Shown one piece after another: positions 52,710 through 64,000 of a stretch of DNA of 64,000 nucleotides. The stretch is taken from the NCBI GenBank assembly GCA_947564735.1, contig CANOEC010000001.1, positions 1 through 64,000 of the forward strand, written 5' to 3'. This DNA is from an uncultured Lachnospiraceae bacterium. GTDB lineage: Bacteria; Bacillota; Clostridia; Lachnospirales; Lachnospiraceae. A program made the translations under genes and the position numbers. Position 1 is the stretch's first letter, and every line of letters starts with the position of its first letter. The notes beneath the pieces are model-generated. The model saw only the letters and a list, made by a program, of their open reading frames with translations. It did not search any database and was not told where the DNA came from.

Positions 52710-53075
52710 ATGAAAAAGATTATGAAAAAATTAGGGGAAGCTGAATTGGAAATCATGCTGGTGATTTGGAAAGCAGACATCCCTGTTACTTCCAGTTTTA
52801 TCTTAAAAGAATTACAGGAACGGAGAAAGTGGCAGCTTTCCACTCTTATGACTTCATTATCACGTTTAGTTAACAAAGGATTTATCAGTTGTGACCGTGC
52901 CACTGGAAACAATTTGTATTCATCAATCATTTCAGAGAATGATTTTAAGGCAAAGGAAAGCAAAAATTTTTTGGAGAAACTATATAATAATTCCATACAG
53001 AATATGGTTGCTACCCTTTATAGCAATAACTATCCATATAAGATACTTCCATTTTATTGCATACCTTTTATTTAG
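52710..53075 (+). CDS. BlaI/MecI repressor with replaced C-terminus
   Basis: Winged-helix repressor of 121 residues. The DNA-binding domain is intact (LGEAELEIMLVIWKADIPVT, QLSTLMTSLSRLVNKGFI, RATGNNLYSS), with the dimer helix to about residue 107 (NMVATLYSNN). The final 14 residues, PYKILPFYCIPFI and preceding Tyr, are not BlaI-like: they are read from the first arm of an 83-bp inverted repeat that replaced the normal end, about 20 residues. DNA binding may remain but dimer stability is probably hurt. Confidence 0.8.
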   Translation: MKKIMKKLGEAELEIMLVIWKADIPVTSSFILKELQERRKWQLSTLMTSLSRLVNKGFISCDRATGNNLYSSIISENDFKAKESKNFLEKLYNNSIQNMVATLYSNNYPYKILPFYCIPFI

Positions 53076-53243
53076 GAATGGTGCGAAAATGAGCAGAAAA
53101 ATGATAACGTATTTATTTTTAAATGTAGTTGCTATTTCCATATCAACAAGCCTTATTATAATTTTTCTGCTCATTTTCGCACCATTCCTAAATAAAAGGT
53201 ATGCAATAAAATGGAAGTATCTTATATGGATAGTTATTGCTAT
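53020..53243. repeat. Perfect 83-bp inverted repeat, 58-bp spacer
   Basis: Arm 1 (53020-53102) is the exact reverse complement of arm 2 (53161-53243), checked base by base; after one mismatch four further bases pair. Arm 2 is the genuine BlaR1 coding sequence (LNKRYAIKWKYLIW); arm 1 occupies the place where the BlaI C-terminus should be and stops two bases into the likely BlaR1 start codon at 53101. Confidence 0.95.
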
Positions 53244-54590
53244 GCGCTTGATTATACCGTTTAATATGGACATTCCGTTTCCACAGATAATAATTGATAT
53301 TCCGGCAGAGATTACGATTCCCATTAACACATATAATGAAAATGACACTTCAACAGTGTCATCGATAGAACAAGAACCAATAGAGATCCATCATGAAAAT
53401 ACTATGAAAGCGCCGTCTCAAACAGCGTTAAAACCTTCAAAATTTACTTTGCTGGACATTATCGCCTGTCTATGGCTAACGGGCTGCCTGCTATTCCTGT
53501 AGTTTTGCCGACATGTGATTACAGTGAGGAAGAACTATTCTTTGTTTTGAAACATGAATTGATACACATAAAACGACATGATATTTATTTTAAGTTGCTT
53601 TTTGTGATTGCAAATGCTTTACATTGGTTTAATCCTTTCGTTTACATTATGCAAAGAGAAGCAGTCGTTGACATGGAATTATCCTGTGACGAAAAAGTAA
53701 TCCAGCAAACCGCTTATGCTGTCCGAAAAGCATATACAGAAACCTTGCTTTCTACTTTTAGCAAACAGCATAAGAAAGGAACTTTTTTAACAACACAATT
53801 TTACGGAGATAAAAAAATTATGAAAAAAAGGTTCAAAAATATATTAACCAAGTCACCAAAGAAAAACGGCTTATTGATTTGTATATGTGCTATTTGTATT
53901 ACCTTGATTTCGGGAATGCTAATCGGGTGTTCTGCACTAAAAAATGATTCATCAAAAGAATCAGGGCAGATAGATAATGATTCTTCAGAAGAACCGATGC
54001 AGACGGACTTAGACCCTATAAATCCCGGTTTAGAAGATAATAATTATAAATCCATACTTTTGGGTAAGAGCAATTTTATATGTGCTGATTTGGCAAATAA
54101 AAGCCTAAATATCAGTGAAATAGGGCAGGCTGTTACAGATGATGATAGCGTTGCAGTAAGTGCTACAAAATTTGCAATGATAGATATTGATGGTGACGGA
54201 GAAGATGAAACCATTCTTTGGCTCCAAATAAATGGTATTTCTAATTATGGTTTTGAGATACTGCATTATCAGAATGGGGAAATACTTGGATATACATTGC
54301 AGTATAGGGCATTTATGAATCTAAAAACAGATGGTACCTTTCTGTTTTCGAGTGGTGCTGCTGATTCCGGAATAGGAAAAATAAATTTTTCCGAGACTGG
54401 ATATCACATAAACAGTCAGGCTTATAGTCAATCCGGATTTGACTCAAACAATGAATTGATTGTACAGTATTTTGTAAACAATGAATCTTGTTCAGAAGAT
54501 GAATTTAATGATGTTATAAATGGTCAAGAGCAAAAAGCGGATGTGGAGTGGTATGACTTGTCCGAAAACAACATAAATGCAGTTTTATAA
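53101..54590 (+). pseudogene. BlaR1-like M56 sensor peptidase, disrupted
   Basis: The first part, 53101-53502, encodes the N-terminal BlaR1 membrane region (ITYLFLNVVAISISTS, AIKWKYLIWIVIAMRLIIPF, then a helix ending LTGCLLFL and a stop). The M56 zinc-peptidase part continues in another frame from about 53472: YSEEELFFVLKHELIHIKRHD with the HELIH zinc site, then a helix and lipobox-like IGCSAL, and a C-terminal sensor-like domain. About 50-70 residues between helix 3 and the peptidase are missing at the junction near 53500, so it is an internal deletion with frame loss. No whole sensor can be made. Confidence 0.82.
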
Positions 54591-54781: not shown

Positions 54782-55258
54782 TTATACACAAAATCCTCTG
54801 TTGGAAGAAGGGTCACTGATATTTTCAGTCAGCGTCGTTCTGCCGTAAGTAAGTCCGGCATAAACTGTTTGTGTATTGCCCATGACCGGACCCGACATAT
54901 CCTGATTTTCTATCTCCTGATATGCCGCGCGAAGTTTATCAATCACCATACGCACATGCTCCAGATTTTCTTTGTCGTAATGTGAAGACGCTTTGACAAG
55001 TTCTCTGTTTACATACAGATAAAGCTGCTGCAGATTATGCGCCAGTTCATACTCAAAATTCAAAGAACTTGTCAGTTCATCGATACATCCGCGAATTTTG
55101 CGGATAACACCCTTATACTCAATTCTGTCATCGGCGTCAAGCGCTGCCTCCGCCTCGTCTATATAGAGCAGCGTCATTTCATACAGAATGGTAATCAACT
55201 GCGTTTTATTTGCCTGCGATATCCGCAGCGTGTAAGCCTGCTTCAATTCCTTCGTCAT
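54782..55258 (-). CDS. fliS: Flagellar export chaperone FliS-like
   Basis: Helical protein of 158 residues with the FliS pattern: QAYTLRISQANKTQLITILYEMTLLYIDEAEAAL, CIDELTSSLNFEYELAHNLQQLYLYVNRELVKAS. It binds the C-terminus of unassembled flagellin and prevents polymerisation in the cytosol. It carries an extra C-terminal tail of about 40 residues beyond the standard fold. It follows a flagellin gene by 34 nt, as expected for a chaperone and its client. Confidence 0.87.
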   Translation of the reverse strand: MTKELKQAYTLRISQANKTQLITILYEMTLLYIDEAEAALDADDRIEYKGVIRKIRGCIDELTSSLNFEYELAHNLQQLYLYVNRELVKASSHYDKENLEHVRMVIDKLRAAYQEIENQDMSGPVMGNTQTVYAGLTYGRTTLTENISDPSSNRGFCV

Positions 55259-55292: not shown

Positions 55293-56447
55293 TCACTGAA
55301 GAAGCTGCAGAACCTGAGAAGGTCTCTCGTTTGCCTGTGCGAGCATGGAAGTCGCCGCCTGAGAGATTACCTGCTCCGTCGTGTATGCAGTCATCTCTTC
55401 TGCAACATCTGCATCCATGATACGTGAATAAGCAGCCGTCATATTTTCATTTGTAATATCCAGATTGCTGACCGTATGCTCTAAGCGGTTCTGGTAAGCG
55501 CCAAGTCTGCTGCGGGCATCCGACACATACATAATCGCACCCTTAATCTCTTCGATTGCATCTGTGCTGCTCTCTTCCGTAGTGACCTCCGTCTTCTCGA
55601 TACCGAGTCTGTCCAGAGATATCGTAGGGATTCTGATTTCCAACTGCTGTCCTTCGTTCGCGCCGGTCTGCATATCCATCGAACCGATTCCTGTAATATC
55701 AAGAATCAAATCGTTGCCGCCTGTTACGTCCTGTGACGCAGCGCCGGCTGCCGGCGGTGTGATTGCAAGCGTCATCTTAAAGTCCTGCGGTCCCGTAATC
55801 GTTATCTTATCCTGCCCAACCTCCGTAATCGCTGCACCTACAGGAAATTCAGTACCAAGCTGTATCGCTGGAGGCGTCAAAGTCGGGTCTGTCATCTTCT
55901 CTTTGTCAATCTTTCCATCCGCATCGTAATATACCGTCAGACTGTTAATCGTATATTTCTTCGCCAATACCTCGTCGCTATAATAATCCACCTTCGCCGC
56001 CTGACTGTTTGTATAGCCTCTTAAGTCGAAGCTTCCATCTAAGAGCGGCTGTCCGTTAAACTCTGTATCCCTTGCAATCCTTGCCACTTCTTCTTTTAAC
56101 TGCTTCAGCTCCTGATTCAGCGTCTGGCGGTCAGTGGAGGTGAGCGTTCCTGTCGCGCCTTTGACTGCCAGTTCGTTCATTCTCTGCAGCATATCATGTA
56201 CCTCTGTCAATGCTCCGTCCGCCGTCTCAATGACAGAAATACCTCTGTTGGAATTTTGTGTCGCAACCTCCACACCTGCAATCTGGGCATTCATCCGCCG
56301 TCCGATTGCATATCCTGACGGATTATCCTTAGATGCCGTAACCTTTAAGCCGGAAGACAATTTCTTAAGAGAATGGGACAATCTTTTATCTGATGCGTTA
56401 AGTGCGTTGTTCGCGTGCATAGCCGCTGAGTTATAACTGATTTTCAT
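55293..56447 (-). CDS. Flagellin
   Basis: Flagellin of 384 residues. N-terminal D0/D1 (1-135: NNALNASDKRLSHSLKKLSSG, NGQPLLDG) and C-terminal D1/D0 (about 300-384: AYSRIMDADVAEEMTAYTTEQV, ending PSQVLQLLQ) enclose a modest variable domain with a beta-rich GPQDFKMTLAITPP part. The N-terminus MKISYNSAAMHANNAL differs from the other flagellins, which start MIIKHNLTAV. Strong AGGAGG site. Located 30 nt after the 1026-residue gene. Confidence 0.95.
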   Translation of the reverse strand: MKISYNSAAMHANNALNASDKRLSHSLKKLSSGLKVTASKDNPSGYAIGRRMNAQIAGVEVATQNSNRGISVIETADGALTEVHDMLQRMNELAVKGATGTLTSTDRQTLNQELKQLKEEVARIARDTEFNGQPLLDGSFDLRGYTNSQAAKVDYYSDEVLAKKYTINSLTVYYDADGKIDKEKMTDPTLTPPAIQLGTEFPVGAAITEVGQDKITITGPQDFKMTLAITPPAAGAASQDVTGGNDLILDITGIGSMDMQTGANEGQQLEIRIPTISLDRLGIEKTEVTTEESSTDAIEEIKGAIMYVSDARSRLGAYQNRLEHTVSNLDITNENMTAAYSRIMDADVAEEMTAYTTEQVISQAATSMLAQANERPSQVLQLLQ

Positions 56448-56477: not shown

Positions 56478-59400
56478 CTATTTCGTAATCGCTGTGATAA
56501 ATGCCTTTGCTATCCGGTATAGGTCAGCCGTCTGTACCGCCGCTCCTGCATCCTGCATTTCTTCTGACTCAAATGCATTCAAATCAAGTTCATCGCTGTG
56601 GATGATTCCTATCTTTTCAAGTTCCATCTCCTTGTGCTCCAGACCACTGAACGCATCCCGAAGACCAGCCTGTAAATTGCCGCTTTCTTCCTGAAGCGCT
56701 GCCGTTCCCTCGGATGTAGAGCAGGCAATGTAACCCGATACTTTATGATTTCTTATCGTAAACTGCGCCGCCACGTTACCGTATCTCTCTGTACTAAGCG
56801 TTGCTTTCACCTTACCGCCGTCGTCTTTTGCATGTAAAATTTTCAGATGAATCGCCGTCGTCTCACCATGGATTTCGACTGGTATCTGATAATTTTCTTC
56901 CTTGGCAAGATTGCCGGCAAGCGTAAGCTGTTTACGACAGCTTTGAATTGCTTTCAAATCAATATATGTGATATCCGTATCATACTGCGCTTCTTCCAAA
57001 ACCTCTTCAAAGGCTTCCCGCATCTCTTCATATGCCGCCTGCGCAGAATCCTTATCCGTGAATGCCTCCTGCAGATGCGCGGCTGCATGTTCCGCTTTCG
57101 CTTCTTTATCGGCTGCGGTGTACTCTTTTAATTTTTTGAATAAAGCCCCGCGGCTGTTCATCAGCATATTTGCCGCCGCCAGATTATTGACTGTCACCGG
57201 CTGTTTATGGTGCAGCAGTTCTTCGATTACCGTATCGTCCACCTCGCAGGACTGCCGGTATTCCTGCAGCTGCTCTTCCTGATAATCCTTCTCCATGGAA
57301 GCATCCTGCTTTGCCATACGGTCCGCGATATCGCCTACAATGTCTCGGTAGTATTTGCGGAATCCTGTTTCAATCTGCGCTGTGATGGACATTCCCTTCT
57401 TCACCGCATCTATTCCGGCAAAAGCGTCGTCTACCATGATATCCATTCCGCCCCTCTTGCTGCTGCGAACTGCGCTGAGCATATTCTTAAATGAAAACTC
57501 TGCGCCCATGTTCAGAAGCGCGCCTACTGCGGCATCGTCCGTTTTCTCAAACTGTCTGAGCATTCGGTATATCCCGATGTAAGCTGTCCTCTCTTCCTCA
57601 GTAATCGCCTTGTTCTTATCCAGCTTATATAGGAATTTACTGTATTTTTCCGCTTCCTGCTCTTTACCGTAAGGTATGGAATCCAAATATTCATTTAATT
57701 CCGGTATGGTCATCTCAAGCGGATTCTTGCCGTCGCGAATCGTCTGCAAGACAGCTGCCGGCGTCATTTTATCAATAACGCGGTGGAGTTCCATCGCCGA
57801 AGCCCGTACCGACATCACATTTTCACGTGACAATTCCATCTTATTATAACTGAGGATTCTCACTGCACGACGATTTTCTTCGTCAGGCTCCATATCCATG
57901 TCTTCCAGAATACTGTCCACATTGCGGAATGCCTTTGTCATGGAATCGCCCAAATCGCTGTTTGCCATTGTCATCCATGACTCATATTTTTCTCCGGCAT
58001 GCTCATATCTGCTCCGTAATGCACTGCCTTCAATGTGCACCTGATTTAAAGTAAAATCTTCGTCCGTTACTTTAAACCTGCCGGCAACGTCAATCGGCAT
58101 ATAAGGTATCTCAGCCGTCTTCGTCCGGGTCTCCGTATAGAGCGCCGCTTTCTGCGCCGCCTTATCAATATCTGGCTCGCCGAACAAAAGCTCCCTCTGC
58201 TGCGCTTCCATCTGCTTCAACGTATCTACAAGCCGCTCTAAATCAGTGGTGTCAATCGAATAACCGCTCTCCAGCAGCTTCCGGTTGACCTCTATCGTCA
58301 TCATCAGCCGGACTTCTTCCAACTGCCGTCTCGCCGTAATGACCTCCGGATTTTCAGAAGTTCCCGCATAATCCGCAATGCTTTCCCTCTCTGTCCCATA
58401 GCCGGGAGCTGCATTTTTCTCCGCTTCCCCGCTATTTTGAACCTTATTGTTATCCGGCTGTTCGGACTGCCCCGGAAGCTCTTCTTTCGCCGCTTCCAGA
58501 TTCACCAAGTTAAGCTTTTTCTCTTCTCTTACAGCCTGTTCTACCGCCTCGTCCGGTATGCGGGCAAAGCGTTCCACATACTCTGCCGCTTTCTCCATGC
58601 TGCTTCTGTCGTCCGCAAGATTGGCTTCTCCCGCCTTTTTCCCGTCAGCTATTGCAGAGGCAATCGCCGTAAGAACCTTTTTCTCATCCTGTGGAAAGGT
58701 CAGCTGTCCAAGCTGGTTTAAAACCCGCGCCGCATCCGGTGTCAGAGGAACGCCTTTCTCTATCAGCCACTTTGCATTCTCCATAGTCTCTTCATTTACT
58801 TCCAGCCCGGCTTCTTCCAATACCTTTTCCATCTGGGGACGTAACTGCTGCCAGTTATAGTCTTCCGCCTTCTTGGCATAATAGCCGGGACCGTCTGCAT
58901 AGTAACCCCTGCCCTGCCTGCTCCCGTCCATCGTGGAACTGTAATCCGCCAGATACAGATTATCAATGGTAGGCTCCCTATGGTTTTCCACCATATATTT
59001 CATGGCGCCTTCCGTCATATCCTGAAGTTCCATCGCCTTATCATAGGCTTTCTTAACTTCCTGCACATTCTCCTTTGTCAAAGGGATATCATGCTTCGCA
59101 AACTGATTTGCTAATTCTTTGGCAAATACTTCACTTCCGGTAATCTCCTTTAAAGTATCCATATCAAGCTGGTCCGTGTAACCGATGACCTGCGTGCCGC
59201 CTTTTATCAGCTGCGCTTTGATTGTATCAACAATGGTGACTACTTCTTCTACGTCCATGTCGCCGACCTGATATCCGTCCTTAACCATCCGGCTAAAATC
59301 TTCCTCAGACATAGTATTAGACATAACTGTCATATAGTCTCTCTGCGCAGCAACGTCAATCTGCCCCGCTTCCTGCATAACGTCTTCTGCGGTCCTTCCC

Positions 59401-59558
59401 TGACCCTTGTAAGCTGTGTTATCCATAACTGTTCCAGAAATGTCTAATGCGAATGCACCCGTCCGGTTTACTTTCTCCTCACGGGTGTCCCTGTATGTAG
59501 TTGTCGCCACCTTGTCTACATTTTGATTTGCGCTGTTATTATCAAATGTTATCTTCAT
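56478..59558 (-). CDS. Large FliK-like flagellar protein
   Basis: Soluble protein of 1026 residues without membrane segments. Recurrent helical units with the motif (P/E)LT.EN(V/A) occur near residues 157, 275, 590 and 830, and the last about 170 residues resemble the FliK C-terminal hook-length-control domain (GGKVKATLSTERYGNVAAQFTIRNHKVSGYI). The family resembles DUF6240, described only as clostridial flagellar-locus proteins; I recall this from memory. It heads an operon with flagellin and FliS behind a sigma28-like promoter. Function inferred: hook-length or export control, or a filament-associated secreted factor. Confidence 0.6.
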   Translation of the reverse strand: MKITFDNNSANQNVDKVATTTYRDTREEKVNRTGAFALDISGTVMDNTAYKGQGRTAEDVMQEAGQIDVAAQRDYMTVMSNTMSEEDFSRMVKDGYQVGDMDVEEVVTIVDTIKAQLIKGGTQVIGYTDQLDMDTLKEITGSEVFAKELANQFAKHDIPLTKENVQEVKKAYDKAMELQDMTEGAMKYMVENHREPTIDNLYLADYSSTMDGSRQGRGYYADGPGYYAKKAEDYNWQQLRPQMEKVLEEAGLEVNEETMENAKWLIEKGVPLTPDAARVLNQLGQLTFPQDEKKVLTAIASAIADGKKAGEANLADDRSSMEKAAEYVERFARIPDEAVEQAVREEKKLNLVNLEAAKEELPGQSEQPDNNKVQNSGEAEKNAAPGYGTERESIADYAGTSENPEVITARRQLEEVRLMMTIEVNRKLLESGYSIDTTDLERLVDTLKQMEAQQRELLFGEPDIDKAAQKAALYTETRTKTAEIPYMPIDVAGRFKVTDEDFTLNQVHIEGSALRSRYEHAGEKYESWMTMANSDLGDSMTKAFRNVDSILEDMDMEPDEENRRAVRILSYNKMELSRENVMSVRASAMELHRVIDKMTPAAVLQTIRDGKNPLEMTIPELNEYLDSIPYGKEQEAEKYSKFLYKLDKNKAITEEERTAYIGIYRMLRQFEKTDDAAVGALLNMGAEFSFKNMLSAVRSSKRGGMDIMVDDAFAGIDAVKKGMSITAQIETGFRKYYRDIVGDIADRMAKQDASMEKDYQEEQLQEYRQSCEVDDTVIEELLHHKQPVTVNNLAAANMLMNSRGALFKKLKEYTAADKEAKAEHAAAHLQEAFTDKDSAQAAYEEMREAFEEVLEEAQYDTDITYIDLKAIQSCRKQLTLAGNLAKEENYQIPVEIHGETTAIHLKILHAKDDGGKVKATLSTERYGNVAAQFTIRNHKVSGYIACSTSEGTAALQEESGNLQAGLRDAFSGLEHKEMELEKIGIIHSDELDLNAFESEEMQDAGAAVQTADLYRIAKAFITAITK

Positions 59559-59645: not shown

Positions 59646-59672
59646 ATTTCGGCATAGCTTATTGAATTCTTA
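59646..59672 (-). promoter_or_regulatory. Sigma28-like flagellar promoter
   Basis: TAAG (59672-59669), 15-nt spacer, GCCGAAAT (59653-59646), close to the sigma28 consensus TAAA-N15-GCCGATAA. It lies about 90 nt before the 1026-residue gene and would drive late flagellar expression. Confidence 0.65.
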
Positions 59673-59729
59673 ACCCCCTCCGCCCAAAACAGCCGGGCTG
59701 TACATACTTCGTTGTATGCTTCCGTATTC

Positions 59730-61685
59730 TTATTGTAAAAGCTGCAGCATGGACTGGGTACTTTGGTTCGCCTGCGAGAGCATGGAAGTTCCCGCCTGCG
59801 CCAGAATATTGTTAACCGAATATTCCAGCATCTCTTCCGCCACATCCGTATCCCGGATTAATGACTCCGCCGACTGCGTATTCTCTGTGATGTTGTCCAG
59901 ATTATTTCTTGTATGCTCCAGACGATTCTGCACCGCCCCATATTCCGAGCGCATGGTAGACACACACAGGATTGCCCGTTTGTATTTGTCTATCGCCTTC
60001 CCTGCACTCTCCGCAGAGTCCACTTTCACATCGGCGACACCCAGATCATTTGCCGACAACTTAAATGAACTGAAATAGATATGCTGTCCTGCTTCCGCAC
60101 CCGCCTGCACGAACAGACTGCCGGACCGCTGTACCGTGCCGCGCTTGGAGTCTGAGGAACTTCCCCACTTTTTCTCGGCGTCGGCATTCGTATTTCCGTC
60201 TCTGTCTACTCCGTTTGTCGTGGTGGCGCCGCCGCCGGTATATGTATTCTTGCCGCCCAGATTATTCACAAAATGATCGCTCTGGTCTACATTCAGGATA
60301 AAATAATTGTTCTTCGTTCCTCCCTGTAAAAGAGACGCCTTCGTCCCCGACAGACCATTGGGAGATACAATGGAACCCGTTCCGGCGCCGACTGCCGTAA
60401 CCAAGTCCTTGGCAAACCCTACCGCGTCTTTGGAAAAACTATCCTCAAAATCCGCCAAGTCTTCATATTTCCCGTTTGTCCGCCTTGAAATCGCCTGTCC
60501 GAGAGAGTAGCCATCCTCAATATCTTTCAGAATACTATCCAGTCCTCTTGCAATCGTATCCGCCGTAACCGCACCGCCTCCGCCTGCCGCATAGCCCAGA
60601 TACATACTTGCTATATATCCCTGCGCATATGCATTATAGGAATCCGATGTATCTGTCACCCGTGACAGCCATTTGCTAATCGCAGCATCACCTTTTGGCA
60701 TGACATTATATATCAAGTCCCCACAATAATTCATGGCGCCGCCGACTGCCTGCGCAGTCCCCTCCACAAACCACGAAGGGAATGAATCTGCACCGTAAAC
60801 TCCCAACATACCATTTGTTACGGCATCAAACATAACAGCATGTGTCATTTCATGGGCAATTGTCGTGGCAAGGTCATCAGACATCGCAATATTTCCACCG
60901 TTTTCTTTCAGATATTTCATATTGACGCCCAGCTGGAAAGAAACACCATTAGAAGATACATACGCCAGTGTCGAATCGTTCTTATAGTACATATTCAGGC
61001 TAATCTGCAATCCAGACACAGTAGGTACTGCGGAATTCGGAAGCTTTGATACGATATCACCGAGCAGGGTCGGCATATAAGTGTCCCTGATTTTCTCTGC
61101 AAAGTCTGCAAGCCCCGCCTGTGTAAACACCAAGCCTGCCCCATTTGCCTGCGCGATTGCATCCTTAAAATTCTGCATCTCATAAGACATATAGTCCGCA
61201 TCCAGAAAGATAATATCAGAGAAATCATCCGATATGCGGCGGGGACTTCTGGACGAGAAAGATGCATTGGAAGAATCAAACACATCCATTTCGTTAAACT
61301 GTGTATCTCTCGCGATTCTGTCTATTTCCTTATTAAGCTGCTCAATCTCTGCAAAAATCGCGTCCCTGTCTCCGGACATATTCGTATCATTCGCCGCTTT
61401 GACTGCCAGTTCATTTCCGCGTTGCAGAATATCATGTACCTCATGAAGCGCGCCTTCTGCACTCTGCACATATGAAATTCCATCCTGTACATTTAAGGAA
61501 GCCTGCGTCAGTCCCCTGACCTGTCTGCGCATCTTCTCTGATATGGAGAGTCCGGCTGCATTGTCCGCCGCACGGTTAATTTTATATCCCGAAGAAAGCT
61601 TTTCCGTATTTTTTGCCTGCTTGCCTACTACCAGATTCAGATTGCGATTCGCGTTTACCGCTGTTAAATTGTGTTTAATAATCAT
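59730..61685 (-). CDS. Flagellinolysin: flagellin with metallopeptidase domain
   Basis: Flagellin of 651 residues. The N-terminal D0/D1 (1-137) and C-terminal D1/D0 (about 555-651) are normal and complete, ending in STQSMLQLLQ. The variable region carries a zinc peptidase domain: HEMTH at 278-282 and a third ligand Glu308 in SWFVEGTAQAVGG, the gluzincin pattern. This matches the flagellinolysin family, in which the protease is displayed along the flagellar filament and is active. Gly/Asn/Thr-rich beta segments (430-550) lie between the peptidase domain and the C-terminal D1. Good AGGAGG site. Substrates unknown. Confidence 0.93.
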   Translation of the reverse strand: MIIKHNLTAVNANRNLNLVVGKQAKNTEKLSSGYKINRAADNAAGLSISEKMRRQVRGLTQASLNVQDGISYVQSAEGALHEVHDILQRGNELAVKAANDTNMSGDRDAIFAEIEQLNKEIDRIARDTQFNEMDVFDSSNASFSSRSPRRISDDFSDIIFLDADYMSYEMQNFKDAIAQANGAGLVFTQAGLADFAEKIRDTYMPTLLGDIVSKLPNSAVPTVSGLQISLNMYYKNDSTLAYVSSNGVSFQLGVNMKYLKENGGNIAMSDDLATTIAHEMTHAVMFDAVTNGMLGVYGADSFPSWFVEGTAQAVGGAMNYCGDLIYNVMPKGDAAISKWLSRVTDTSDSYNAYAQGYIASMYLGYAAGGGGAVTADTIARGLDSILKDIEDGYSLGQAISRRTNGKYEDLADFEDSFSKDAVGFAKDLVTAVGAGTGSIVSPNGLSGTKASLLQGGTKNNYFILNVDQSDHFVNNLGGKNTYTGGGATTTNGVDRDGNTNADAEKKWGSSSDSKRGTVQRSGSLFVQAGAEAGQHIYFSSFKLSANDLGVADVKVDSAESAGKAIDKYKRAILCVSTMRSEYGAVQNRLEHTRNNLDNITENTQSAESLIRDTDVAEEMLEYSVNNILAQAGTSMLSQANQSTQSMLQLLQ

Positions 61686-61746: not shown

Positions 61747-62136
61747 CTAATCCCACAATCCAATCTGTTTCCAGCTTAAATCACCAGTATGACAGATAGG
61801 ACATATCATGTGATGCGCCTGTAACTCTATTTCCTGTAATTCCTCTCCGCACTGCGTACAGTGATTTCCAAGTATAATCCTGCTGCCATCCGTCAATTCC
61901 GCCTCTACCGTTAAAAGACAAAATATGTCATGACATTTGTCACAATAAAAAACTTTCTGCTGTGCATTAAAAAATCGCACTTTCTGCTGTTCACACAGCC
62001 TCTTCCATTCTTCCGCCTCAGCCTGCGGCAGACAGGAAGCTATGACCTCCGAATTATTGCTCATTAATCCTGCCCCTACCGACATCTCTTTCTTACAGCC
62101 GCAGGCATCGCAGGATATCAATATTCTTTGTCCCAT
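61747..62136 (-). CDS. Zinc-ribbon protein among flagellin genes
   Basis: Soluble protein of 129 residues with CxxC-type pairs: CDACGC near 9-14, CDKC near 65-68, CTQC near 93-96, and CPIC near 112-115, enough for two zinc sites. I do not know the family. It lies 61 nt upstream of flagellinolysin and 39 nt downstream of the large flagellin on the same strand, so it is probably expressed with them. It could be a regulator or assembly factor. The ribosome site AAAGGAGAG is good. Confidence 0.72.
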   Translation of the reverse strand: MGQRILISCDACGCKKEMSVGAGLMSNNSEVIASCLPQAEAEEWKRLCEQQKVRFFNAQQKVFYCDKCHDIFCLLTVEAELTDGSRIILGNHCTQCGEELQEIELQAHHMICPICHTGDLSWKQIGLWD

Positions 62137-62175: not shown

Positions 62176-64000
62176 CTATTGTAACAACTGCAGAATGGAC
62201 CGGGTGCTCTGGTTCGCCTGCGTCAACATGCTTGTTCCTGCCTGCATCAGTATGTTGTTGATGGAATATTCCATCATCAAATCCGCTACATCCGCATCCC
62301 GGATTAGTGACTCACTCGCCTGCGTGTTCTCAATAATATTGTTATTATTATTGATGGTATGCTCCAGCCTGTTCTGCATCGCGCCGTAAGTACTTCTTTT
62401 TGCACTTAACAGTTTAATCGCTTCCTTGATGCGCCGGACTGCTTTCTCGGCATATTTTGGTCTGCTCAGCGTAATGGAATTGATTTTAATTGCACAGGAA
62501 CCGATGCTTACACGGGGAATTTCTATATTATCCCCAGACTCTCCACTGACAAGGATGCTAAGCGGTTTGCGGGACTCCCTTCCGTTCTCATTATAAAAAA
62601 TAATCTTTCTCGCGCTCCCGCCGACATCCGTTATGGTATGGGAGCCGATAACCTTGTGCACAATTTTCAGCACACCATTTTCTACGGATGCATTCAGAGG
62701 CGCCTTATTACCATTATCGTCTCCGTTCGCAAACCTGTCATTCAAAAGGTTGACAAAATCCTCTGTCGTATAGGAAATGCCTTCCGAAAATGTATACTGG
62801 TATGGTTTGGAATCCGCCGAAAGAGTCAGCACATTTTCACCGGGCGGGAACGTAATACCCTCTGTCAAATCTTTTGTTCCAGTAATATAGGTCGCCTGCG
62901 GTTCCGTGGTTGTTTTATAGAAGACAAAGCTTGCGGCGCTTCCCCGCACGCCGTCAAGGATGTATTCTCCATCATCAAGCTCTACACCCGGTTTTTTATG
63001 TACAAGAATCTGCAGGGCTGTCTTATCATTGGAATTCGCAACATTTGTTTCCCGCAAACCGATTCCAACTTCTATGATAAAGTCATTGAGTCCTTCTTCT
63101 TGAAACTTTTTCTGTATTTCATTCTGCAAAACAGTCGTAAGCTGACTCCCCGTGTAACTGCCTGCCGGAATTTTTATATCCATCGGAATTTCATAGTCAC
63201 TCGCAATTGGCGACCTGCTCTTAAAAGCAAAATCAAAAGTTAGCATATCATTTGCATCGGCAACAATTTCAACAGGATCCCCCGTTAAATCTTTACGCCC
63301 GATGATAAATGCTTCCGTATAATCGGAATCCACATAACTCCCATTCTGCTTATAATTGGAAGCCACAACATCCTTTGTATCCTTTGACAGCAAAACTCCG
63401 TCATGGAAACTTCCTGACGCCCTCAAATCAGTACTGCCTGCAGAAAGCTGGATTTTATCCTCTATGATTGCAACCTCAACTTTATCTTTCAAGTCGGGAT
63501 TTCCATTAATTGCACTTTGTATGGCATTCTTTAATGCATCTCTGGTTCCATAACTGCCGGATGCAATGTCCACCGAAACATCTTTGCCGCCGACATGTAT
63601 AGTTAACACATTATTGTTGTTGTTAATCGTTGTATTTTCGGCGACCGGCATATAAGTTGTTAAAGTCGTTTTCCCTGCCTTGTAAATTGTAGGCTCCCTT
63701 TGCTCCACTCCGATAATATTTGCCCATGCAGAAGAAGTGGTGGTGTAATTCTGGAGATAGAGATAATAAGAATCAGAAAGCGGCGGCGATGTAAAAATCA
63801 AATTACCTCCGCTATATGACACCTTCATATTCCTTAACGTATCATTGCTGCCTGCTTTAAGTTTAGTGTTTATTTCATCAACTAATTCCTGCATACTGCC
63901 ATAAGTTCTGGCTGTCAGTGCAATTGAGCCTGTACCGTTTACGCTTGAAGAAAATGCCAGTGTACAGCCATCCTTGCCAATCGTTATGGAACCTGACTGC
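62176..64000 (-). CDS. Large flagellin, N-terminus beyond the window
   Basis: C-terminal 607 residues of a large flagellin; the frame stays open to the right edge. The last about 90 residues are a complete D1/D0 (AVRRIKEAIKLLSAKRSTYGAMQNRLEHT, ending STRSILQLLQ). The visible variable region is built of repeated beta modules of about 90-120 residues, each with a pattern like (P/S)xGxYTxxxLxxxLN followed by xVxxGxLxIxxK, seen near 62650-62820, 63040-63230, 63450-63600 and 63780-63900. Such modular variable domains form the outer filament surface. Confidence 0.9.
   Translation of the reverse strand, partial: QSGSITIGKDGCTLAFSSSVNGTGSIALTARTYGSMQELVDEINTKLKAGSNDTLRNMKVSYSGGNLIFTSPPLSDSYYLYLQNYTTTSSAWANIIGVEQREPTIYKAGKTTLTTYMPVAENTTINNNNNVLTIHVGGKDVSVDIASGSYGTRDALKNAIQSAINGNPDLKDKVEVAIIEDKIQLSAGSTDLRASGSFHDGVLLSKDTKDVVASNYKQNGSYVDSDYTEAFIIGRKDLTGDPVEIVADANDMLTFDFAFKSRSPIASDYEIPMDIKIPAGSYTGSQLTTVLQNEIQKKFQEEGLNDFIIEVGIGLRETNVANSNDKTALQILVHKKPGVELDDGEYILDGVRGSAASFVFYKTTTEPQATYITGTKDLTEGITFPPGENVLTLSADSKPYQYTFSEGISYTTEDFVNLLNDRFANGDDNGNKAPLNASVENGVLKIVHKVIGSHTITDVGGSARKIIFYNENGRESRKPLSILVSGESGDNIEIPRVSIGSCAIKINSITLSRPKYAEKAVRRIKEAIKLLSAKRSTYGAMQNRLEHTINNNNNIIENTQASESLIRDADVADLMMEYSINNILMQAGTSMLTQANQSTRSILQLLQ

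Follow-up and report, generated by a model that had tools for sequence, protein, structure and literature searches.

Results

Gene Order at the Locus

The window analyzed here, the first 64,000 nucleotides of contig C1 of an uncultured gut Lachnospiraceae bacterium, contains a run of flagellar genes on the minus strand. A giant modular flagellin (called at 1260 amino acids; 62176..64000, continuing past the window end to C1:65958) is followed by a 129 amino acid zinc-ribbon protein, which we call ZnR (61747..62136), a 651 amino acid flagellinolysin (59730..61685), a 1026 amino acid DUF6240 protein (56478..59558; PF19753, E-value 2.4e-123), a 384 amino acid flagellin without protease (55293..56447; Pfam), and the flagellin chaperone FliS (54782..55258; PF02561, E-value 5.9e-22). 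Gene order and Pfam bear out an earlier sequence-only reading, according to which a protease-bearing flagellin lies beside protease-free flagellins; that reading had overlooked both the linked zinc-ribbon gene (61747-62136) and a second flagellinolysin.

The gaps between giant flagellin and ZnR (39 bases) and between ZnR and flagellinolysin (61 bases) are short, good ribosome-binding sites are visible by eye throughout this run, and the three genes are predicted to form an operon with the giant flagellin as its first gene. Using the sigma28 consensus TAAA-N16-GCCGATA (spacing 14-17), we find a site with one mismatch approximately 62 bases before the assumed start of the giant flagellin, outside the window; the best sites before ZnR, the flagellinolysin, and the 384 amino acid flagellin have three mismatches each. 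A site with two mismatches precedes the DUF6240 gene (59647..59673, minus strand), which is therefore probably on a separate transcript.

Other features of this region deserve mention. The slot of the giant flagellin varies among genomes of the genus (loci L053-L068): the protein at this place has approximately 1260 amino acids here and in some relatives, approximately 657-718 amino acids in others, and is sometimes absent. Most of the locus versions that were read keep the DUF6240 gene next to the 384 amino acid flagellin, and its product has a weak FliK-like match at the C-terminus (E-value 0.017). An inverted repeat (53020-53107 and 53156-53243; 88 nucleotides, 99% complementary, with a 48-nucleotide loop) is either an assembly artifact or a real hairpin, and the open reading frames around it (52710-54590) resemble, by eye, a regulator gene and a disrupted gene for an M56-type peptidase.

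A Divergent Flagellinolysin

The 651 amino acid open reading frame starts with ATG, and its product has complete flagellin ends: Flagellin_N matches residues 3-140 (61266..61679, minus strand; E-value 2.8e-37) and Flagellin_C matches residues 566-650 (59736..59990, minus strand; E-value 3.7e-23), both above the Pfam cut-offs. Between them, conservation and secondary structure place a metalloprotease insert (residues 186-446; 60348..61130, minus strand), the limits being those that we picked for the alignment. The insert carries HEMTH at residues 278-282 (60840..60854, minus strand) and, within SWFVEGTAQ, Glu308 (60762..60764, minus strand), the likely third zinc ligand. His278, Glu279, His282, Glu308, and Ala311 are invariant in all 33 aligned flagellinolysins of the genus, the window protein counted (10 of type B and 23 of the 24 of type A, as defined below; G063 is excluded for an internal stop), so HEMTH is no chance HExxH. 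What the sequence-only reading had described, a flagellin with this motif, Glu308, and both ends intact, holds.

Flagellinolysins have been known as a class since 2017 (Eckhard 2017). The NCBIfam flagellinolysin model NF033876 matches residues 112-581 (E-value 7.7e-44) at 150.7 bits, below its cut-off of 205. The flagellin ends contribute part of this score: the flagellin at 55293-56447, which has no protease, already reaches 62 bits against the same model. We therefore file the window protein as a divergent relative rather than as a member of the NF033876 equivalog. Asn255 aligns where at least 90% of 69 rows carry Asp; by our own mapping, this column, upstream of HExxH, corresponds to the calcium-site Asp206 of FliA(H). 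By eye, the canonical members L229 and L230 also seem to have Asn there.

Like the flagellinolysins (FlaMP) of Clostridium haemolyticum and Hylemonella gracilis, the window protein has a protease between complete flagellin ends, an HExxH motif, an Ala three residues after the Glu, and structural flagellins encoded next to it. The Glu lies 26 residues past the second His, versus 25 in C. haemolyticum by the published numbering. The window differs in its divergent sequence, the presence of two flagellinolysins in one genome, and the linked ZnR. As judged from its sequence, the window protein is a divergent flagellinolysin (type B); it is predicted to be proteolytically active and to co-polymerize into the filament.

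An AlphaFold model built on 69 sequences (mean pLDDT 77.6; low-confidence stretches at 147-173 and 458-519) places His278 and His282 in one helix (270-288) and Glu308 in another (304-315), the order expected for a gluzincin. In helix order, the model agrees with the gluzincin fold suggested earlier; the matches listed in the fold searches are flagellins. A profile search of PDB sequences gave two chance matches only. Among 25 protease inserts drawn from the 33 of the genus, six show weak similarity to Peptidase_MA_2 and one to M9.

Other Flagellins in the Genome and the Genus

Genome-wide there are nine Flagellin_N matches. The one on contig C43 is probably FlgL, as read from its low score and, by eye, from its neighbor genes. 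Another belongs to a second flagellinolysin (C16:71767-73641; locus L018, 13768-15642), a 624 amino acid frame with HELMH that scores 236 bits, above the NF033876 cut-off. Its frame runs off the contig end, leaving the first 21 Flagellin_N positions unmatched; it is 36% identical to the window flagellinolysin over the BLAST alignment, and no ZnR gene is adjacent to it. The earlier description of the window enzyme as one of three flagellins is therefore correct for the locus but not for the genome. The genome (G000) also encodes a 254 amino acid flagellin-like protein (C73:3076-3840) that lacks the first 16 Flagellin_N positions and has an unusual C-terminus.

In 78 genomes of the genus, we distinguish type A, above the NF033876 cut-off, from type B, the type found in the window. 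Among the matches listed, type A occurs in 24 genomes and type B in 10, nine of the latter scoring 144-160 bits and one, G019, 95 bits (its sequence has unread letters). Three genomes, this one included, carry both types, and 31 carry at least one, again among the matches listed. Three genus genomes without flagellinolysin encode proteins of 1652-1879 amino acids (L248 3897-9065, L249 204-5843, L250 3815-8773) with HELQH, weak similarity to the flagellinolysin model, and, by eye, an N-terminus resembling a Sec signal.

ZnR, a Zinc-Ribbon Protein beside the Flagellinolysin

The gene directly upstream of the window flagellinolysin encodes a protein with four CxxC pairs (C9/12, C65/68, C93/96, C112/115) and a C-terminal Trp-Asp. 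The eight cysteines are invariant among ZnR members (alignments: A1, 32 of 33 genus ZnRs; A4, 51 of 53 plus the window one, 52 members). The structural model is confident and compact (pLDDT 92.9), and no signal sequence is seen by eye. The window ZnR stays under all curated cut-offs, with a best Pfam score of 20.4 bits versus 24.5 and a best NCBIfam score of 21.5 versus 117. The families CpXC (PF14353) and Zn_ribbon_8 (PF09723) share CxxC pairs with ZnR and give weak matches in 10 and 37 of the 52 members, respectively (best E-values 9.3e-4 and 9.2e-6), the window ZnR lying below their curated cut-offs.

At type-B loci, a ZnR homolog is the immediate upstream neighbor on the same strand in all ten cases. 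Five versions of this locus that have no flagellinolysin (L062, L064-L067) have no ZnR either, and one (L068, in G077) has ZnR without flagellinolysin. At type-A loci, which lie elsewhere in the genome, ZnR is directly downstream in 22 of 24 and is 19-28% identical to the window ZnR. The two type-A genes without an adjacent ZnR are those of G000 and G077, and both genomes keep ZnR at the type-B locus; as four of the 24 have a copy there, the chance of this pattern is 6/276 = 0.022 (calculated by hand). At the type-A site of G000, approximately 130 bases lead to the next gene, versus approximately 533 in G055, where the next gene is 83% identical, which marks ZnR as missing.

Co-occurrence of ZnR and Flagellinolysin

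Among the matches listed, ZnR is present at 124 bits or more in all 31 genus genomes with a flagellinolysin and in two of the 47 without (Fisher p-value 1E-19, without correction for kinship). In the first of these, G044, the neighbors of ZnR are end pieces of a flagellin with no protease insert; in the second, G052, ZnR is at a contig edge. Two of 35 genus matches were dropped, in G009 (39.6 bits, an end piece) and G018 (21.4 bits).

In the family (299 genomes), flagellinolysin-profile matches at an E-value of 1e-20 occur in 11 genomes, 10 of them with flagellin ends, some broken. ZnR adjoins eight of these 10, and none was found in the other two genomes, G352 and G354. Once six of 16 ZnR matches were dropped (E-values of 1.7e-8 or weaker), ZnR matches with E-values of 1e-12 or below remain in 10 genomes, including two without flagellinolysin: G317, where ZnR is at the edge of a contig, and G124, which is a true exception. 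In G359, the flagellinolysin (L135 6096-7691) reads HGLMH, with Gly for the catalytic Glu, has a disrupted N-terminal part, and is probably decaying; ZnR is still adjacent to it.

We also examined 80 named loci, the best 80 of 133 found with a type-A-led query, several of which overlap the genus genomes. ZnR lies on the 3' side in 56 of these best 80, and all 56 end in Trp-Asp. The 56 include partial or broken flagellinolysins (L160, L170, L171, L180, L187, L207) and one without HExxH (L186); in L187, ZnR is in one frame with a piece of the protease. The median gap between flagellinolysin and ZnR is 27 nucleotides in the 49 downstream pairs measured; the upstream arrangement comprises 15 measured pairs and G019. 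The 56 loci represent up to 37 gene neighborhoods, an upper figure, given the thresholds chosen (two shared genes, 45% identity, 60% length) and the seven of 56 loci shorter than 8 kb. For 65 of the 80 loci, the 300 bases preceding the flagellinolysin were scanned for a sigma28-like site with at most two mismatches; 53 of the 65 have one, versus 10.7 expected under single-base shuffling.

The 24 named loci without a 3' ZnR are L165 (the same as G077), L172 (contig edge), L179, and 21 that are mostly of rumen or Butyrivibrio type as judged by their titles; a search of the genomes behind the 21 found no ZnR. Among the 23 genomes behind the 24 loci, two have ZnR elsewhere; in G377, one of the two, it directly precedes a different flagellinolysin.

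At the level of the class (391 genomes), the long ZnR is found at an E-value of 1e-8 in four genomes (G000, G615, G627, G633). It lies directly upstream of a flagellinolysin in G615. In G627, which belongs to another family, the gene that directly follows it encodes a flagellin whose insert is partial and has no HExxH; in G633 no flagellin is nearby. The same is true of the ZnR-like protein of G124 (L126 8525-8902), and together with it the protein of G633 (L226 7203-7658) possibly belongs to a wider family with other roles. No long ZnR was found at this E-value in G422, which has a canonical flagellinolysin. Just downstream of that flagellinolysin is a 78 amino acid open reading frame (L228 5890-6126) with four cysteines near its start, which shows no relation to ZnR by profile.

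A short relative occurs in a different family of the class, f56, where flagellinolysins above the cut-off are found in seven of 40 genomes. In all seven, a short ZnR relative lies downstream on the same strand, starts with Met-Gly, and ends in Phe-Tyr-Asp; it has 106 or 109 amino acids where the start is clear, and in L235 it lies in a longer frame with an ambiguous start and a gap of approximately 300 bases (the short-form alignment, A5, uses six of the seven, leaving out L235). A draw of 378 genomes from the phylum yielded 11 loci read outside the genome of the window; both copies in G1108, from a further family, have a short relative downstream, and no ZnR was found within flanks of approximately 1.5 kb at the other nine. 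In hhalign comparisons, the first 25-26 columns of the short and long forms match (probability 95% with A1, 87% with A4), the rest being unaligned; the two forms are likely to be homologous over the whole protein. Taken as a pattern of gene neighborhoods, the link between ZnR and flagellinolysin is well supported.

Protease Domains without Flagellin Ends

Four proteins, one in G168, two in G269, and one in G660, have the same protease domain without flagellin ends, and each begins with what, by eye, resembles a Sec signal. No ZnR lies beside any of them within the stretches read (the G168 contig has only 3.6 kb), and none was found in the G168 genome. In a tree of 69 protease domains, one Sec-like version groups with the ZnR-linked flagellinolysins with support of 100/96, and the others fall nearby, on long branches that are less well supported. 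The tree took in 27 of the 49 pairs with ZnR downstream as well as 18 loci from the 24 without ZnR, and it carries a long-branch warning; the domain alignment (A3) holds 68 of 70 eligible locus proteins and the window protein.

The divergence of ZnR tracks that of the protease domain more closely than that of the flagellin ends, with a partial r of 0.80 over 64 pairs (the 49 downstream pairs give 0.49 and the 15 upstream pairs 0.61); as a correlation of distances between linked genes, it is weak evidence. Together, the Sec-like versions without ZnR and these distances suggest that ZnR may handle the protease domain in the cytosol before export.

Discussion

The flagellinolysin class, its activity, and its mixed filament are already known; what is new is the conserved zinc-ribbon partner. 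The mixed filament that the sequence-only reading had put forward has been shown for C. haemolyticum, where the protease flagellin is a minority subunit of up to about 10% (PMC5595980). The terms “zinc ribbon” and “cytoplasm” are both absent from the main texts of PMC5595980 and PMC7643111, and “chaperone” appears in them 0 and 2 times, the passage displayed being a reference list. Searches of the open literature showed no description of a ZnR-type partner of flagellinolysin.

We lean toward a model in which flagellinolysin, giant flagellin, and ZnR are made from a single sigma28-type transcript and ZnR serves as the dedicated cytosolic partner of the exported filament protease. One late flagellar transcript would yield all three proteins; ZnR, probably a cytosolic chaperone or inhibitor, would bind the protease domain and, up to the moment of export, keep the insert inactive but fit to be exported. 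The flagellar apparatus would then export the flagellinolysin, which would co-polymerize as one of several flagellins and expose a zinc protease on the filament, while ZnR would stay inside. It is tempting to go further and suppose that flagellar export has its own protease-antiprotease module, in which ZnR, devoted to the insert, both inhibits it and keeps it unfolded in the cytosol; ZnR would have accompanied flagellinolysins across several families within the phylum and be absent where the protease domain takes the Sec route. We regard this version as possible at best. Perhaps the conserved aromatic-Asp tail of ZnR sits in the active-site cleft. The retention of ZnR beside damaged flagellinolysins (G044, G627, G359) counts against the favored model, as an inhibitor alone would not need to be kept there. 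So does the occurrence of ZnR-like proteins with no flagellin nearby (G124, G633). Moreover, ZnR is missing from many flagellinolysin loci, so flagellinolysin can either manage without it or use something else. The recombinant protease regions of C. haemolyticum (PMC5595980) and H. gracilis (PMC7643111) are active without a partner, which implies that a protein like ZnR is not needed for folding in vitro.

Could ZnR have a different role? By analogy with FliW and CsrA, which couple flagellin synthesis to export, ZnR might be a regulator that binds nucleic acid and ties the making of flagellinolysin to its export. Its weak similarity to zinc ribbons found in RNA polymerase and in RNA-binding proteins and its probable place in the flagellinolysin transcript would fit such a role; yet ZnR follows the protease domain in its divergence more closely than the flagellin ends, lies on either side of the gene or at another locus altogether (G000, G077), and is not found with the Sec-like versions, and we find this explanation unlikely. 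That ZnR is a zinc chaperone loading the active site strikes us as improbable. The enzyme needs zinc, ZnR has eight invariant cysteines, and 24 of 52 members show weak similarity to HypA (best E-value 0.0014); however, flagellins cross the export channel unfolded and would thereby lose any metal acquired in the cytosol, no export signal is seen in ZnR by eye, and both recombinant domains work without a partner.

We give very little weight to the reading that ZnR is a mere passenger and the window holds nothing beyond an ordinary flagellinolysin: many flagellinolysins do lack ZnR, and genes that are linked travel together by descent among related genomes, but passenger status sits poorly with 31 of 31 versus two of 47 genus genomes among the matches listed, with up to 37 neighborhoods, and with a ZnR at the second locus where the first lacks it. 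Hardly any probability attaches to the window protein being a structural flagellin with an inactive protease insert, for although its score is under the NCBIfam cut-off and the general base is replaced elsewhere (HGLMH in G359), the catalytic positions are all invariant in the ten type-B members.

The favored role, that of a cytosolic partner of the protease flagellin, has functional parallels. FliS and FliW are cytosolic handlers of a flagellar export substrate, as is proposed here for ZnR, and fliS is present in this locus. FliS reportedly binds the flagellin C-terminus; in contrast to FliS, full-length ZnR in the genus goes with protease-bearing flagellins or a remnant of one, a single contig-edge case apart. 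The staphostatins ScpB and SspC of staphylococci are small inhibitors encoded in the operon of an exported protease and protect the producing cell from it (PMC8443034). The comparison is one of function and not of homology: staphopains, the targets of staphostatins, are cysteine proteases, and ZnR has zinc-ribbon cysteines and a proposed inhibitory role.

A protease of broad specificity must be made in the cytosol and passed along the flagellar channel without damage to the cell, and we found no account in the open literature of how this is achieved. The pair of ZnR and flagellinolysin offers a concrete, testable candidate for safe cytosolic handling before flagellar export. In addition, ZnR provides a gene-neighborhood marker for protease flagellins that score under the present family cut-off.
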